A stretch of 64,000 nucleotides of DNA from an uncultured Methanobrevibacter sp. (GTDB lineage: Archaea > Methanobacteriota > Methanobacteria > Methanobacteriales > Methanobacteriaceae), in the NCBI RefSeq assembly GCF_902771435.1, contig NZ_CACXXB010000017.1, positions 1 through 64,000 of the forward strand, in the 5' to 3' direction. Below are positions 2,983 to 10,451 of the stretch, in pieces. How positions within the stretch are numbered: position 1 is the first letter of the stretch; each line of letters starts with the position of its first letter. The notes below the pieces were generated by a model. That model was given only the letters and a program-made list of their open reading frames with translations. It searched no databases and was not told where the DNA came from. Both the position numbers and the translations under genes were made by a program.

Positions 2983-2990
2983 ACACGTTA

Positions 2991-3028
2991 TATGGGAAAT
3001 TGATTTTTCCCATATTTTTTTATTTTTT
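2991..3028 (+). terminator. Hairpin/T-run terminator of the first adhesin gene
   Basis: A stem of tatgggaaa and tttcccata with a short loop is followed by a long T-rich stretch, starting 9 bases after the stop codon. The same arrangement, including the aaacacgtta lead-in, follows the second adhesin gene. Confidence 0.75.
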
Positions 3029-3205
3029 ATTTATAAAATTCATCATAATTTTATAAAATATGTATGAAATCACTTTTTTTAAAAAATTTCTAGAATTTTC
3101 ATTGCAATTTTTTTAAGTTTTCAAGATTATTCACTTAAATTTTACATAGATTCATATTTTACATTTAATTTTTATAATCATGAAAAGAAAATTAAAATAA
3201 TAAAC

Positions 3206-3214
3206 TATATATTT
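3206..3214 (+). promoter_or_regulatory. Possible TATA box for the structured RNA region
   Basis: A TATATATT-like box preceded by an A-rich BRE-like stretch would place a start site near 3235. That is about 100 bases before the folded segment. It is weak evidence on its own because the whole gap is AT-rich. Confidence 0.3.
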
Positions 3215-3284
3215 AAAAAATTAGTAAAATATTAATTGCATATGTATTCCGATTATAGAAAATATAATTGAGGTTGCATGTGTT

Positions 3285-3350
3285 ATGGAAAATTTGTTAT
3301 TAAATAGTATTTTAATGAAAATTGGTGAAAAATCATTTCTAACATGTTAG
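3285..3350 (+). CDS. Possible 21-residue leader ORF
   Basis: An ATG-initiated 21-codon frame (starting MENLLLNSIL) has a GAGG motif about 12 bases upstream. Its stop codon lies inside a perfect 12-base palindrome (CTAACATGTTAG, 3339-3350). It sits between a TATA-like box and the folded RNA candidate, so it could be a leader peptide. It could also be chance. No family is recognised. Confidence 0.2.
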   Translation: MENLLLNSILMKIGEKSFLTC

Positions 3351-3433
3351 GAATGTAAGGCTTTTAACCAACAGTCTTAATCGGGATTCAGTCTTGATTC
3401 AGTTCTAGGATGTTCAACCTAGCGAAAAACAGG

Positions 3434-3593
3434 TAATCTATTAAAAATTCGGCTGTTAAAGTTTGGCCATTTTAACGGTTGATTTTCTAGATTATTAAAA
3501 TAATCCAATAACTATGCATTGATCTTATCACATCAGTTATTCTAAATCAACTTTGGTTTTTAATGGCTGATTAATAGTTATTAGATTATTTTA
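3434..3593 (+). ncRNA. Candidate structured RNA upstream of the large adhesin
   Basis: Two large adjacent stems fold from this segment. Hairpin 1 pairs 3434-3440 with 3488-3494 (7 bp) and 3450-3460 with 3471-3481 (11 bp, three of them G-U pairs). Element 2 pairs 3496-3514 with 3575-3593 (19 positions, one mismatch) and encloses 3532-3541 paired with 3562-3571 (10 bp, two G-U). G-U pairs point to selection on RNA rather than a DNA palindrome. A T-rich stretch follows directly, as in a terminator, and the adhesin has its own TATA-like box downstream (near 3663). An unexplained 810-bp gap is rare in this dense genome. It is no SRP, RNase P or tRNA that I recognise. A small degenerate mobile element is the main alternative. 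Confidence 0.45.
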
Positions 3594-3792
3594 TTTTAAC
3601 TTTTTTTATAAGATTTTTTTTAACTTTTGTATAAATTATATTCCATAATATTTTTATTGTATTAATTATATAGTAATATGTGAGGCATTTTTTTGTCTCT
3701 TCATTAATTTTTCATAACTATTTGATATTTTAAGTTTTTCGTTAAAAAAAGTTAAACCAATTTAAAATTTGTTTAAAATGTGAGGTAAATTT

Positions 3793-6700
3793 ATGCGAGA
3801 TAAGCGATGTTTATTTTTCATTTTAATACTATTTTTAATAATTTTTTCAACTTCATTTGTAAGCGCAAGTGAAGATTTAGCACATGGCGATACGAACGGA
3901 AAAATAATGCTGTCAAATGACAGTGTTGCAATTGATAATGATAAATTAAGCAATGTTAATTTGGATTCAATTGATGAGGCAGCGGATTCTACATTGGGCC
4001 TTGTAGATGATGCGAAAAACACGAATGAAATTGAAAATGAAAGTCGTTTAACTTTTAATGATAAAACTCCGATATTGGGAGTAAGTAATGACGAACCTGT
4101 GCTCGGTGCTGCTGTTAATTTAAGGGGCGGTACTGCACAAGATGTAATGGATGAAATTTGGAGAAATAGAGGAACTGGAAATATTATTTATCTTAATGGT
4201 GGAACTTACACCGGTTCAGGAACACTTACAGCTAATAGAAATAGCCATCCGGTAATTAGCGATGTTACAGTCATCGGCGGATCTGAAGATAATCCAGAAC
4301 AAATGGCTGTTTTCACTGATGGCGGTCCTGTTTTAACATTTAGGGGAACTCCTCAAAATTGGGGTACTCGATTTTATGGTGACTCCGGTTATGAAGTAAG
4401 AAATGTTGTCTTCAAGCACATTAAAGCAGAGCAAAAATTTATACAGTTCTGTAGTGGATCTGTAATAGATTGTGTAATTGATGATTGTGAATCAGCTTAT
4501 CAGTTTCTTACATTAGTGGGTTGTTCTGAAACAGGTGATCAAATCCACGTTTATGGTTGTAATTTTACAAACTGTCGCCAAACTTATCCTGGTGATGATG
4601 GTGTTAAGGATGGTACAGGTCAACTTGGAGCAGTATTCGGTATAGATATGCGTAACTGTAATTTTATCAATACTTCTTCTGCTCAACACGGTGGAGCTTT
4701 ATGTATTGCTGATGAATCAGAATGGGGCTCACTTCGTGTTGCTTCTACACTTGTAGACACAAACTTTATCAATGTTACCTCCCGTTGGTTTGCAGTATAC
4801 ATACACGGTAATTTCAGTACTTCAGTAGATTACCTCAAAACTCCTGAAATACTTGATAATTGTAAATTTATAAATTGTACTGGTACTGGAGAATACTCCG
4901 GTGGTTTAGGAATAAGTCACGTTAATGTAATTGTTAGAAATTCTCAATTCGAAAACTGTAGTGGTGGACAAGGTTCTGCTATTATGATTGGTGGATTAAG
5001 TGGTGACCATGACGGATTCAGTGGTAGAAACACTAAGGCTAATAATGTACTTATAGAAAATTGTAATTTTACAAACAATGTAGCTACCCTTAATAAAACT
5101 TCATCATACTGTAACGGTATTTATCAACTAGCTTGGGGTGAACAAAGAAGACCTGGAGTACAATACTATGACAGAACCCCGCCAAGTGAGGTTCTCACTC
5201 CAAATTCTAACGGGAACTGGTATATCAAGCATGAACGTATAACATTTGACCCAACAGGTAATGCCGGTGCGATTTTTGTTTATGGTAATGATACAACTAT
5301 CCGTGGCTGTATTTTTGATGGTAATACTGCAGAAAGTGGTAAGGGTGCTGCTGTTTATATAGAAGGTGAAAGAACTACTATCCAAGATTCTAAATTCTAC
5401 AATCATACAAGTACAAACGGTACTGTTTATATTAAAGGTAATGATGCTAAAATTATAGAGTCTACTTTTGAAGATAACCGGGCTGAAAATGGTGCTGGTG
5501 TTTTCATAGAGGGTAATACTGCTCAAATCACTCAGTCTACTTTTGAAGATAACCGGGCTGAAAATGGTGCTGGTGTTTTCATTAAAGGTAATGGTGCTCA
5601 TATTGAACAGTCTACTTTTGATCATAACAATGTAAACAATCAGGGTGGAGCTGTATATATTGATGGTTCCAATTCTTATATCAGTAAAAATGATTTCACT
5701 TATAACGAAGCTGTTCCTCAAGACAACAGCTCTTCAGGAACTACCGGTTTAGGTGGAGCTATTTATGTAAATGGTGATCATACCCAATCTGGAGAAAATA
5801 CATTCACCCACAACAAAGCCCGTAACGGTTCTGCAATTTATACATCTGGTAACGACTTCAAACTTTATTATGATACATTTAATGAAAATCAGGCTTGGAG
5901 TTACCTTTTGATTATCACTCCTGAACCTGAAGAAAGTTATTATAATCAAAGCGATGTTAACATAACTGTTTGCCATGTTGGTGGAGACAATATCATTAAT
6001 GCAATTCACAATACTGCATCAAATGATCAAATAACCTTCCATCAGGTAACTTACAAAAACAGTCATGGCGATGTCGTTACTACAGACTGGGGAGTTAATC
6101 CTGTTAATGGAGCTGAAGCAAGTAATGATGGTCAGTTATTATATCAAGATGATCGCGAAAACGTGCAACTAATTAACATTACTAAAATTGTACGTGATGA
6201 AGATGGTGAAGTCATTTTACAACAGCATACAGATTATACCAATATTACAGGTGAAATCAGGTATACAATTAGAAAACCTATTAAACCAGGTAATTATACT
6301 GTGTATGCTGAACACCCTGAAGACTGGAACTATAAATTCATTGCAAGCACTGCTAAATTTGAAGTTTTAGGTCTTGTGGATTTAAGTACTAACAAAACAT
6401 CTGATAAAAATGAGTATAATGTCAGTGATATAGTAGTTTGGACAATTAAAGTTCACAATGCTGCTAACGCTTCTAATGCTACAAATGTAACTTTAAAAGA
6501 TGTTTTACCATCCGGATTCTCTTTCATCAATGCTACAGCAACCAAAGGTAATTATAGTGATGCAACTAAAATCTGGACAATCGGAAACATGACCAATGGA
6601 ACTACTGAAACATTGACAATCAATTCCCGCGCCATTAATAATGGTACTTACACTAACGAAGTAAATGTTACTTGTAATGAAAAAGACTGGAATTTAACCA

Positions 6701-7137
6701 ATAACCCATCTAATAGGACAGTTATTGTTCATCCAATTTGTGATTTAGTGATTAACAAGACTGTTAATGCTAGTGTTATTAATTTGAATGAGACTGTTTC
6801 TTGGACTATTAATGTTACTAATAATGGTCCTAGTGTTGCTAAGAATGTTGTTGTGACTGCTCCTGCTGGTGTGACTGTTTCTGGTAATGAGTTTACTTGG
6901 AGTATTGGTGATATGGATCCTTATACTTCTAAAGTGCTTACTATTGTTACTAAGGCGGTTAAAGAGGGTAATTTAACCAACATTGTTGTTGTTACTACTG
7001 ACACTAATGAGACTAACAGTTCTAATAATAAGGCTAATAATACTACTCAGGTTGATCCTATTTGTGATTTGAATCAGTGGAATGGACTATTACTGTTGTT
7101 AATAATGGTCCTAGTGTTGCCGAGAATGTTGTTGTGA
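3793..7137 (+). CDS. Beta-helix/DUF11 adhesin-like protein, N-terminal part of a frameshifted gene
   Basis: A GAGGT ribosome site precedes the ATG. Residues 1-25 are a signal peptide (basic start, hydrophobic core, cleavage near VSA/SED). Roughly residues 95-740 form a right-handed parallel beta-helix with many N-x-F-x-x-N turns. Two coils are identical over 47 bases (5461 and 5536). An Ig-like stretch and DUF11 repeats follow from about residue 855. Reading runs normally to ICDL at about 7070, then shifts frame and ends in an unrelated hydrophobic tail (about 17 residues rich in L, I, V, M). The in-phase continuation is the frame that begins at about 7068 and runs to 10451. Together they would make one surface protein of about 2,200 residues. 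It is a secreted adhesin-like protein, either truly truncated or split by a sequence error. Confidence 0.8.
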   Translation: MRDKRCLFFILILFLIIFSTSFVSASEDLAHGDTNGKIMLSNDSVAIDNDKLSNVNLDSIDEAADSTLGLVDDAKNTNEIENESRLTFNDKTPILGVSNDEPVLGAAVNLRGGTAQDVMDEIWRNRGTGNIIYLNGGTYTGSGTLTANRNSHPVISDVTVIGGSEDNPEQMAVFTDGGPVLTFRGTPQNWGTRFYGDSGYEVRNVVFKHIKAEQKFIQFCSGSVIDCVIDDCESAYQFLTLVGCSETGDQIHVYGCNFTNCRQTYPGDDGVKDGTGQLGAVFGIDMRNCNFINTSSAQHGGALCIADESEWGSLRVASTLVDTNFINVTSRWFAVYIHGNFSTSVDYLKTPEILDNCKFINCTGTGEYSGGLGISHVNVIVRNSQFENCSGGQGSAIMIGGLSGDHDGFSGRNTKANNVLIENCNFTNNVATLNKTSSYCNGIYQLAWGEQRRPGVQYYDRTPPSEVLTPNSNGNWYIKHERITFDPTGNAGAIFVYGNDTTIRGCIFDGNTAESGKGAAVYIEGERTTIQDSKFYNHTSTNGTVYIKGNDAKIIESTFEDNRAENGAGVFIEGNTAQITQSTFEDNRAENGAGVFIKGNGAHIEQSTFDHNNVNNQGGAVYIDGSNSYISKNDFTYNEAVPQDNSSSGTTGLGGAIYVNGDHTQSGENTFTHNKARNGSAIYTSGNDFKLYYDTFNENQAWSYLLIITPEPEESYYNQSDVNITVCHVGGDNIINAIHNTASNDQITFHQVTYKNSHGDVVTTDWGVNPVNGAEASNDGQLLYQDDRENVQLINITKIVRDEDGEVILQQHTDYTNITGEIRYTIRKPIKPGNYTVYAEHPEDWNYKFIASTAKFEVLGLVDLSTNKTSDKNEYNVSDIVVWTIKVHNAANASNATNVTLKDVLPSGFSFINATATKGNYSDATKIWTIGNMTNGTTETLTINSRAINNGTYTNEVNVTCNEKDWNLTNNPSNRTVIVHPICDLVINKTVNASVINLNETVSWTINVTNNGPSVAKNVVVTAPAGVTVSGNEFTWSIGDMDPYTSKVLTIVTKAVKEGNLTNIVVVTTDTNETNSSNNKANNTTQVDPICDLNQWNGLLLLLIMVLVLPRMLL
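5461..5582 (+). repeat. Near-perfect 75-bp tandem repeat in the beta-helix
   Basis: The first 47 bases of the unit are identical at 5461 and 5536. The 75-bp period equals 25 residues, one turn of a parallel beta-helix. This implies a recent duplication of one coil. Confidence 0.7.
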
Positions 7138-10100
7138 CTGATACTTTACCTGCTGGTGCTATTGTCATTGGCTCTTATGCTAAAGATGTGGTTAATGGTG
7201 TTTTAATTTTAAAAATTGGCAATTTAGATGCTTATTCTTCTATTGTTATTAAAATTGTCACCCGTTTAACTACTGAAGGCAATAACACTAACATTGTTGT
7301 TGTAAATACAACTACTAATGAATCAGATTATTCTAACAACAATGCTAACAATACCACTTTCGTTGTTTCAGTTGCTGATTTAGAAATCAATAAGACTGTT
7401 TCTAATGCTTCTGTTCATAAAGGTGATACTGTAACTTGGACTATTACTGTTAAAAATAATGGTCCTAATACTGCTGTTAATGTGACTGTTACTGATGTTT
7501 TACCTAAAGAGTTAATTAACCCTGAAGTGATTAATCTTGGTCACGCTGGTAAGTTTGAGGGTAATGTTTGGTCTATTGATGAGATTGCTAGTGGTGATTA
7601 TAAGGTTTTAGTTATCAGAACTACTGTTAATGCTACTAACACTACAATTGTTAATGTTGTTAATGTGACTTCTGATACTTATGATCCTAATGAAACCAAT
7701 AACAACGCTTCTAATGAGACTGTTGTTCCTCCTGAGGCTGATTTAGAGGTTATTAAATTAACATTAAATCGCACTGCTCATATAGGCGATGTTGTGTCTT
7801 GGGTGATTTTTGTTTATAATCATGGTCCTGATGCAGCTGTGAATGTCACTGTTAGGGATGTTGTTCCTAGTGAGTTAGTTAATGTTACTGTTGTACACAT
7901 TACTAATGGCACATTTGAGAACAATGTTTGGTCTATTGATAGACTTGAAAGCGAAAACTTTAGTATTTTAATTATTAATACTACTGTTGATGCAACTAAC
8001 ACTAATGTTACTAATGTTGTTAATGTGACTTCTGATACTTATGATCCTAATGAGACTAATAATGTGGATAATGATACTGTTGAGATTCCTCCTGAAGCCG
8101 ATTTAGAGGTCTTTAAATTAACATTTAATCGTACTGCTCATAAAGGCGATGTTGTGTCTTGGATGATTTTTGTTTATAATAATGGTCCTGATGCAGCTGT
8201 TAATATCACTGTTAGGGATGTTGTTCCTTCTGAGTTAGTTGATGTTACTCTTGTAATCATTAGTAGGGGTACATTTGAGAACAATGTTTGGTCTATTGAT
8301 AGGCTTGAAAGCGGAACCAGTTTACTTTTAGTTCTTAATACTACTGTTGATGCTACTAATGTCAATATTACTAATGTTGTTAATGTGACTTCTGATACTT
8401 ATGACCCTAATATGACTAATAATGAGGCTAATGACACTGTTGAGATTCCACCTGAAGCAGACTTAGCAGTCACTATTACTAACAACTTTGAGGAGTCCGG
8501 TGAGACTTGTCATAATGGTGATACCATTGTTTGGACTATTACTGTTACTAATAATGGTCCTGATACTGCGGTTAATTCCATTCTTAAAGATGTTTTACCT
8601 GATGGTGTTGTTTATGTAAGTCATGACAATGCTAATGGTACTTATGATGAGGTTAATGCTGTTTGGACTATTGGTGATCTGCCTGTTGGCGAAACAGTTA
8701 CTTTGACTATTACTACTGTTGCAAACACAACTAACGCTACTGTATATAGAAATGTTTCTGTTTCATCTGATACTTATGATCCTGATTTAAGTAACAATTA
8801 TGACAACAGTTCTGTTGATGTTCCACCTGAAGCAGATTTAGCAGTTGTTATTACTAACAACTTTGAGGAGTCCGGTGAGACTTGTCATGATGGTGATACC
8901 ATTGTTTGGACTATTACTGTTACTAATAATGGTCCTGATACAGCGGTTAATTCCATTCTTAAGGATGTCTTGCCTGATGGTGTTGTTTATGTAAGTCATG
9001 ATAATGCTAATGGTACTTATGATGAGGTTAATGCTGTTTGGAGTATTGGTGATTTGCCTGTTGGCGAAACAGTTACTTTGACTATTACTACTTTAGCAAA
9101 TACTACTAATGCTACAGTTTATAGAAATGTTTCTGTTTCATCTGATACTTATGATCCTGATTTAAGTAACAATTATGACAACAGTTCTCTGGACATTCCT
9201 CCTGAAGCTGACTTAGAAGTGACTATTACTAACAATTTCGAACAAGAAGGCACACCTGCCCATAATGGTGATGAAGTTATCTGGACAATTACCGTAACCA
9301 ATCACGGACCTGATGACGCAATCAACACAATATTGAAAGATGTATTACCTGATGGATTAGTCTACGTTTCAGACGATTCTGAAGGTTCTTATGATAATGA
9401 AACTGCTGTTTGGACTATTGGAGACTTACCTGTCGGTGAAACCGTAACTTTAACTATTAGAACTTTAGCAAACGCTACAAATGTTACTGTATATAGAAAT
9501 GTTTCTGTTTCATCTGATACCTATGATCCTGATTTAAGTAACAATTATGATAATAGCTCTGTTGAGATTGTTGCCCAAGCTGATTTAGAAGTAATCAAAT
9601 CCGTTTCTGATAAAGCGGCTGAAATAGGCGACATAATCACTTGGACCATCATTGTTAAAAACAATGGTGTGGATACAGCTGTAAATGCAGTTGTAACCGA
9701 TAAATTACCTTCTGGTGTAGTTTATGTTTCAGATGATTCTCAAGGAGCTTATGATAGTGTTACTGGAGTTTGGACTATTGGTGACCTTGCCAGCGGAGAA
9801 TCAGTAAATCTAACAATTTATACTGAAGTGGTTGTAACAAATAAGACCATAGTTAACCCGGCAAGTGTAACCTCAGATACATATGATCCTAATGAAGAAA
9901 ACAATTATTGCAATGATTCAACTACTGTTCCTCCTAAAGCTGATTTGGAGGTAACTACCGTACCGGATGTTAATATTGTAACAGTAGGTGATGAGGTTAT
10001 TTGGACAATTACTGTAGTAAATCATGGACCAGATTCTGCAGTCAATTCTCGTGCAAGAATTGTTATACCTGATTCATTAAGAGTTTTAGGCTTTAAACCT

Positions 10101-10451
10101 TCCAAAGGTACATATGATTCTGAAACAGGAATATGGACTATTGGAGATTTAGTTCCGGATGAAAAGGTAACTCTCAAACTCGAAACTGAAGTTTTAAAAC
10201 ATGGTTCAATTGATATAGATGCGATTGTTGAAAGTGATACTTACGATCCTAACATGACCAATAACGAAGAACCTGCGGGTGTTATTCCAGACGTGCCAAA
10301 TCCTGACAACGGTACTGATGTGCCTCCTGGTTCTGATGTACCTTCTGTAAAAGTTTCACATGAAGAACTGCCTGCTACAGGAAATCCTATTGTAATGGTT
10401 TTATTAGCATTACTCGCAATTGTTGGCATATCATTAAAACGGAAAAGTTAA
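7077..10451 (+). CDS. C-terminal part of the frameshifted DUF11 adhesin, with LPATG-like anchor
   Basis: This frame has no signal peptide and opens in the middle of a DUF11 unit (ESVEWTITV, beginning at about 7068). It is therefore the continuation of the upstream adhesin, not an independent gene. GTG at 7077 is only a nominal start. Nine DUF11 units can be counted. Most begin with ADLEV or ADLAV, then W-TITV-NNGPDTAVN, VLPDG and SDTYDPN. Units 5-7 are nearly identical. The C-terminus is a Pro-rich linker, an LPATGNP motif, a hydrophobic helix and KRKS, a sortase-type sorting signal. Without the upstream part this product could not be exported, so it is expressed only if the frame is restored or the lesion is an artefact. 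Confidence 0.75.
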   Translation: MEWTITVVNNGPSVAENVVVTDTLPAGAIVIGSYAKDVVNGVLILKIGNLDAYSSIVIKIVTRLTTEGNNTNIVVVNTTTNESDYSNNNANNTTFVVSVADLEINKTVSNASVHKGDTVTWTITVKNNGPNTAVNVTVTDVLPKELINPEVINLGHAGKFEGNVWSIDEIASGDYKVLVIRTTVNATNTTIVNVVNVTSDTYDPNETNNNASNETVVPPEADLEVIKLTLNRTAHIGDVVSWVIFVYNHGPDAAVNVTVRDVVPSELVNVTVVHITNGTFENNVWSIDRLESENFSILIINTTVDATNTNVTNVVNVTSDTYDPNETNNVDNDTVEIPPEADLEVFKLTFNRTAHKGDVVSWMIFVYNNGPDAAVNITVRDVVPSELVDVTLVIISRGTFENNVWSIDRLESGTSLLLVLNTTVDATNVNITNVVNVTSDTYDPNMTNNEANDTVEIPPEADLAVTITNNFEESGETCHNGDTIVWTITVTNNGPDTAVNSILKDVLPDGVVYVSHDNANGTYDEVNAVWTIGDLPVGETVTLTITTVANTTNATVYRNVSVSSDTYDPDLSNNYDNSSVDVPPEADLAVVITNNFEESGETCHDGDTIVWTITVTNNGPDTAVNSILKDVLPDGVVYVSHDNANGTYDEVNAVWSIGDLPVGETVTLTITTLANTTNATVYRNVSVSSDTYDPDLSNNYDNSSLDIPPEADLEVTITNNFEQEGTPAHNGDEVIWTITVTNHGPDDAINTILKDVLPDGLVYVSDDSEGSYDNETAVWTIGDLPVGETVTLTIRTLANATNVTVYRNVSVSSDTYDPDLSNNYDNSSVEIVAQADLEVIKSVSDKAAEIGDIITWTIIVKNNGVDTAVNAVVTDKLPSGVVYVSDDSQGAYDSVTGVWTIGDLASGESVNLTIYTEVVVTNKTIVNPASVTSDTYDPNEENNYCNDSTTVPPKADLEVTTVPDVNIVTVGDEVIWTITVVNHGPDSAVNSRARIVIPDSLRVLGFKPSKGTYDSETGIWTIGDLVPDEKVTLKLETEVLKHGSIDIDAIVESDTYDPNMTNNEEPAGVIPDVPNPDNGTDVPPGSDVPSVKVSHEELPATGNPIVMVLLALLAIVGISLKRKS
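8451..9575 (+). repeat. Three tandem 375-bp DUF11 units
   Basis: Units starting at 8451, 8826 and 9201 have exactly 375-bp spacing (125 residues). The first two are almost identical at DNA level, including synonymous sites. The third keeps the protein pattern but uses different codons. This is a recent duplication inside an older array. Confidence 0.85.

Follow-up and report, generated by a model that had tools for sequence, protein, structure and literature searches.

Directly in front of a giant adhesin-like gene of an uncultured Methanobrevibacter sp., in the window analysed here (the first 64,000 nucleotides of contig NZ_CACXXB010000017.1), lies a region that is very likely a structured and conserved RNA absent from current catalogues. 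Comparison of its relatives makes it likely that this RNA is a dedicated antisense regulator of the adhesin, acting through an unpaired linker that is complementary to the adhesin message. All of the support for a regulatory role is comparative; no transcript has been seen, and expression of the RNA, pairing with its target and the direction of its effect are inferred.

The original prediction, made without database searches, singled out a strongly folded segment, consisting of two elements with G-U pairs and followed by a T-rich tail, in the 810-bp gap (2983-3792) that separates two adhesin ORFs, and each of these features held. Positions 3434-3593 fold with an energy of -46.7 kcal/mol, as compared with -20.9 +/- 3.2 kcal/mol for 200 dinucleotide shuffles, none of which folded as strongly (z -8.19), and the two U.G pairs in the inner stem of the 3' domain are kept in 16/17 and 15/17 relatives. 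The extent of the element required correction, because the segment makes up no more than the 3' half of the conserved element, which begins at about 3236, and the 5' domain (P1, the linker and P3-P6) had not been listed at all. BLASTN with positions 3240-3620 against the genomes of the genus returned relatives that match over the full length in three genomes and over part of it in others; alignment of these relatives revealed the 5' domain, from which the covariance model R1 was built. By comparison across relatives the RNA is about 320-445 nt long, and about 375 nt in the window, with a start that is placed to within 3 nt and an end that is approximate within the T-rich tract (Table 1); both ends are predicted rather than measured. 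A search of the window against Rfam gave nothing above the gathering score except a tRNA, a relaxed E-value yielded only chance-level matches in the gap, and no description of the RNA was found in the literature searched. A small protein gene was also considered and rejected, since the longest ATG ORFs in the RNA (10-45 aa) are not conserved and are affected by one-base indels.

Table 1. Positions in the window of the predicted RNA, its parts, its signals and its presumed target.
Feature	Position	Strand	Basis or remark
TATA box of the RNA (CTATATATTT)	3205..3214	+	TATA-like heptamer in 16/16 copies
Predicted non-coding RNA	3236..3610	+	models R1 (3236-3432) and R2 (3504-3584), TATA spacing, downstream T-runs
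P1, 5'-terminal hairpin, 19 bp in consensus	3238..3283	+	99% of cells paired (16 sequences), 3 pairs with double changes
Linker without conserved pairing, putatively antisense to adhesin mRNA	3284..3333	+	alignment, partner-permutation and co-folding comparisons
P3 hairpin	3334..3355	+	double changes in 5/6 pairs
P4 hairpin AAGGCU...AGUCUU, loop conserved	3357..3378	+	98.8% of cells paired
P5 hairpin, then conserved CAGUU	3379..3404	+	double changes in 5/7 pairs
P6 hairpin CUAGG...CCUAG	3405..3422	+	in most members by inspection; outside the counted structure
P7 hairpin (first hairpin as originally predicted)	3434..3494	+	fold; hairpin in most relatives, sequence little conserved
3' domain, multi-branch (second element as originally predicted)	3496..3593	+	P8 enclosing arm P10; covariation
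P8	3507-3514 with 3575-3582	+	within 3' domain
Arm P10, enclosed by P8	3532-3571	+	within 3' domain
T-rich tract, candidate archaeal terminator	3590..3628	+	sequence; T-runs in most relatives
First putative antisense target, adhesin 5'UTR (-117 to -51)	3676..3742	+	alignment; cognate specificity
Second putative antisense target, adhesin signal-peptide codons (+18 to +56)	3811..3849	+	34/40 positions paired in the alignment
Adhesin-like gene, presumed target	3793..10451	+	DUF11 repeats, PMP repeat; signal peptide FFILILFLIIFS

The secondary structure is conserved with compensatory base changes, and covariation in relatives, which had been named beforehand as the test of the prediction, was clearly positive for both the 5' and the 3' domain. 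Across 16 sequences of the 5' domain, 97.4% of cells are paired and 14 pairs have changed on both sides, values matched by none of 500 shuffles on any of the five measures used, and sliding the pairing by 1-3 columns reduces the paired cells to 29-48%. This alignment was fitted to the covariance model, which was itself built on 11 of the 16 sequences counted, and it therefore leans towards the structure. In the 3' domain, P8 and P10 together have 97.2% paired cells and six doubly changed pairs (17 sequences), with 0/500 shuffles as high on four of the five measures. The signal for P7 is weaker: the seven members at one genomic site, site (a), have 97.8% paired cells and four double changes, and 10-13 of 500 shuffles were equally high on most measures. 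The stem of P7 is otherwise free in sequence, and its apical loop is GGUCCA-like and conserved in many members; a kissing interaction or a protein-binding site is one possibility for this loop.

A search of the genus with R1 found 16 copies in 14 of 67 genomes at E-values of 1e-21 to 1e-38, with no grey zone of matches between this range and the 0.01 cut-off. A degenerate 17th copy is present in G002, and a pattern search of 151 genomes added one copy in one further genus of the family (G091), which appears to lie on the same contig as copy L130. No viral contig had the core pattern. The named records that carry the RNA are Methanobrevibacter MAGs, some of them labelled goat jejunum or RUG. 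A giant adhesin gene lies directly downstream in 13 of the 16 copies, with 519-835 nt from the start of the RNA to the ATG. Most of the context falls into two arrangements: site (a), where albA-PHP-trpB-parA-radical SAM are followed by the RNA and then the adhesin, and site (b), with the order adhesin, RNA, adhesin, ilvD-hisD-aspS (gene names as assigned by our own reading of the sequences). In the complete genome G028 the two sites are consecutive, giving a tandem RNA-adhesin-RNA-adhesin array, and a third site is found in G006 and L130. There are three exceptions to the adjacency of RNA and adhesin: in G052 (an assembly that is 84% complete) the RNA is followed by ilvD, with no adhesin downstream; in G048 no adhesin is found between the RNA and the next gene; and in G066, where two contigs were joined by inference, an insertion sequence (IS) lies between the RNA and an intact adhesin start, both of which have been kept. 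The inserted IS-like element of G066 (L056 and L101) has inverted ends and sits between the RNA and the adhesin promoter.

One alternative reading of these copies is that they are mobile or otherwise act at the level of DNA, either as a MITE or as an invertible phase-variation switch whose inverted repeats are the linker and the UTR. The terminal pairing in the 3' domain, and the fact that linker and UTR are imperfect inverted copies of one another, could be cited in its favor. Against it, the window's genome has only two copies (contigs C10 and C17), both before adhesins, the orientation is identical in every copy, the inverted copies are imperfect, and the base changes are compensatory. An insertion element present in many copies with target duplications had been named as what would refute the original prediction; judged by copy number and synteny, with two syntenic copies rather than many dispersed ones, this refutation fails, and a DNA-level element is all but excluded.

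The adhesin of the window is represented by two ORFs, 3793-7137 and 7077-10451, which are separated by a frameshift and have DUF11 repeats on both sides; the frameshift may be a real break or an assembly error from repeat collapse. In G028 (L057 and L058) an adhesin ORF runs off both ends of the record, and would be about 6,180 aa long if the record is circular.

That the RNA is an independent transcription unit is inferred from sequence alone, as is the presence of separate promoters for RNA and adhesin. A TATA-like heptamer is located at -27 to -32 from the start of the RNA model in 16/16 copies, a position that fits expectation if the RNA begins with P1, and in most copies the 3' domain has T-runs after it. 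In the interval from the RNA to the start of the adhesin, TATA-like boxes are recognized by pattern in 12 of 13 relatives, at variable distance; the TATA-like box originally proposed before the adhesin is weak in the window and clearer in relatives, and so held only in part. The original prediction had allowed for either a small RNA in its own right or a regulatory leader of the adhesin, and had considered that it might not have been described before. This proposal is supported, and the independent version is favored because of the RNA's own TATA box, the T-rich end, the copies without an adhesin and the copy that is separated from its adhesin by an IS.

The main competitor is that the adhesin mRNA begins with a long and structured 5' leader, resembling an attenuator or riboswitch, in which the linker would pair in cis with the UTR and close a large domain. 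Such a leader would account for why, in 13 of 16 copies, the RNA immediately precedes the adhesin and shares its strand, and the complementarity of linker and UTR could also form inside a single transcript. Against it stand the T-runs and TATA-like boxes that separate RNA and adhesin in most relatives, the persistence of the RNA without a downstream adhesin in G052 and G048, and the IS that splits the two in G066 with both kept. A leader is considered unlikely; the support for a link to the adhesin comes from antisense complementarity to the adhesin message and not from a leader arrangement.

The antisense evidence comes from 13 cognate pairs of linker and adhesin. In nearly all of them the reverse complement of the linker aligns with the adhesin 5'UTR, mostly at -115 to -45, and also with codons around +18 to +56. 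For the UTR the mean local score is 54.2 for cognate pairs and 45.8 for non-cognate pairs, as against 36-40 for the sense, complement and reversed controls, and random assignment of partners reached the observed cognate sum in none of 20000 permutations (p < 5e-5); without four of the strongest pairs the cognate excess remains (p = 0.0013). For the signal-peptide codons the score is 45.8, versus 23-25 for the sense and reversed controls (13 pairs). The signal is confined to RNA windows that start at nt 30-60, with none outside about nt 30-120, and net co-folding energy is stronger than the shuffled mean in 13/13 pairs. Because both partners are AT-rich, individual pairs exceed shuffles only by a modest margin (z 0.5-5.9). 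The predicted accessibility of the linker (0.36-0.59) is only somewhat higher than that of the rest of the RNA (0.30-0.38), the 13 pairs share common descent, and the sense control too has a small cognate excess (p 0.008). What the comparison shows is that complementarity to the target message has been maintained in evolution; there are no pairing data. Direct masking of the ribosome-binding site is not predicted, the two target sites lying on either side of it. At several site (a) loci the UTR unit occurs in tandem repeats.

In G000 and G028, which have two units each, the RNA has no preference for its own adhesin over the neighboring one, and cross-regulation of both adhesins is probable in genomes with two units. 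A search of the window's genome for a wider regulon, using the signal-peptide codons, returned only the two linked adhesins. The codon pattern occurs beside the RNA, the matches inspected in genomes without the RNA were due to chance, and in G006 and G017 the search also recovered the opposite strand of the RNA itself.

Copies without an adjacent adhesin are informative about the linker, which was lost or shortened in three of four. In G048, G002 and G040-C164, P3 is missing together with all or most of the linker, and what is kept comprises P6, P7, the 3' domain and P5, or a remnant of P5; G052, also without an adhesin, retains most of the linker in shortened form. That the linker is lost in copies without an adhesin connects it with the adhesin, and retention of the core hints at an additional function for this part. 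Records L112, L068 and L111 carry variants of this kind, with no adjacent adhesin, P3 and the linker (wholly or for the most part) gone, and core and 3' domain present.

The 3' domain also occurs alone. At L115-L121, L123 and L124 it follows an ORF for a secreted protein (MN[LF]KS.ILKLS...) and precedes an adhesin of another class (MKxxAKLL...), observations that rest on 1500-base flanks; at L115 the lone domain adjoins the radical SAM gene of site (a). In G030 (L122) it is joined to a different 5' part, which may have its own TATA box, and a gene for another secreted protein comes next. Loci with the 3' domain only, which served as a negative control, gave no consistent antisense signal.

These copies bear on a further alternative, that the RNA is structured for some other function, such as protein binding or 3'-end stabilization, and merely lies beside adhesins, the antisense match having arisen incidentally, from AT-rich inverted sequence or through an old duplication. 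Persistence of the core and 3' domain where both linker and adhesin are missing speaks for it, as does the position of the 3' domain after secreted-protein ORFs in other genomes. It is opposed by the cognate specificity, by a strand- and direction-specific signal that is confined to the linker, and by loss of the linker where the adhesin is absent, and is regarded as unlikely.

In the preferred reading, that of an antisense regulator, the RNA would be transcribed independently of the adhesin, and its linker would pair with the adhesin mRNA at sites flanking the ribosome-binding site and alter translation or stability of the message; repression is the most likely effect, by analogy only. The hairpins and 3' domain may serve to stabilize the linker or to present it, or may be bound by a protein, and each such giant adhesin gene would be immediately preceded by an antisense RNA dedicated to it. 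A bolder reading, for and against which the case seems evenly balanced, is that large structured RNAs of this kind form a new archaeal class, travel with giant adhesin genes as a unit and control adhesin display through pairing of the linker with 5'UTR and signal-peptide codons, the related linker-less core having another role.

In rumen methanogens, adhesin-like proteins rank with the most numerous proteins of the cell surface, and they have been considered in connection with methane mitigation (PMC2812497). Little is known about the control of their expression, and only a few sRNA-mRNA pairs have been described in archaea. The RNA probably controls the amount of cell-surface adhesin made in a group of gut methanogens; if so, a dedicated RNA before a giant adhesin gene would be a direct and testable control mechanism, and would add a new family for annotation.

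The closest parallel is sRNA162 of Methanosarcina mazei, where pairing of a single-stranded linker with mRNA has been shown experimentally, the targets being a regulator operon and MM2442, and which also acts on the 5'UTR of its cis-encoded neighboring gene (PMC3510493). Both are methanogen RNAs in which structured parts surround a linker, and in both a neighbor's 5'UTR is the target (by inference here). Unlike sRNA162, the present RNA belongs to another archaeal order and is associated with adhesins; its 3' domain is branched, and it is located upstream of its presumed target without overlapping it. No sequence relation was seen, though none was tested directly. A second parallel is FasX of Streptococcus pyogenes, which base-pairs with a pilus (surface adhesion) mRNA at the ribosome-binding site (PMC7900414). 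FasX differs in being bacterial, unrelated, controlled by a two-component system and active in trans. There is no sign that the RNA belongs to the family of either, and the likeness to both is one of mechanism, drawn by analogy.
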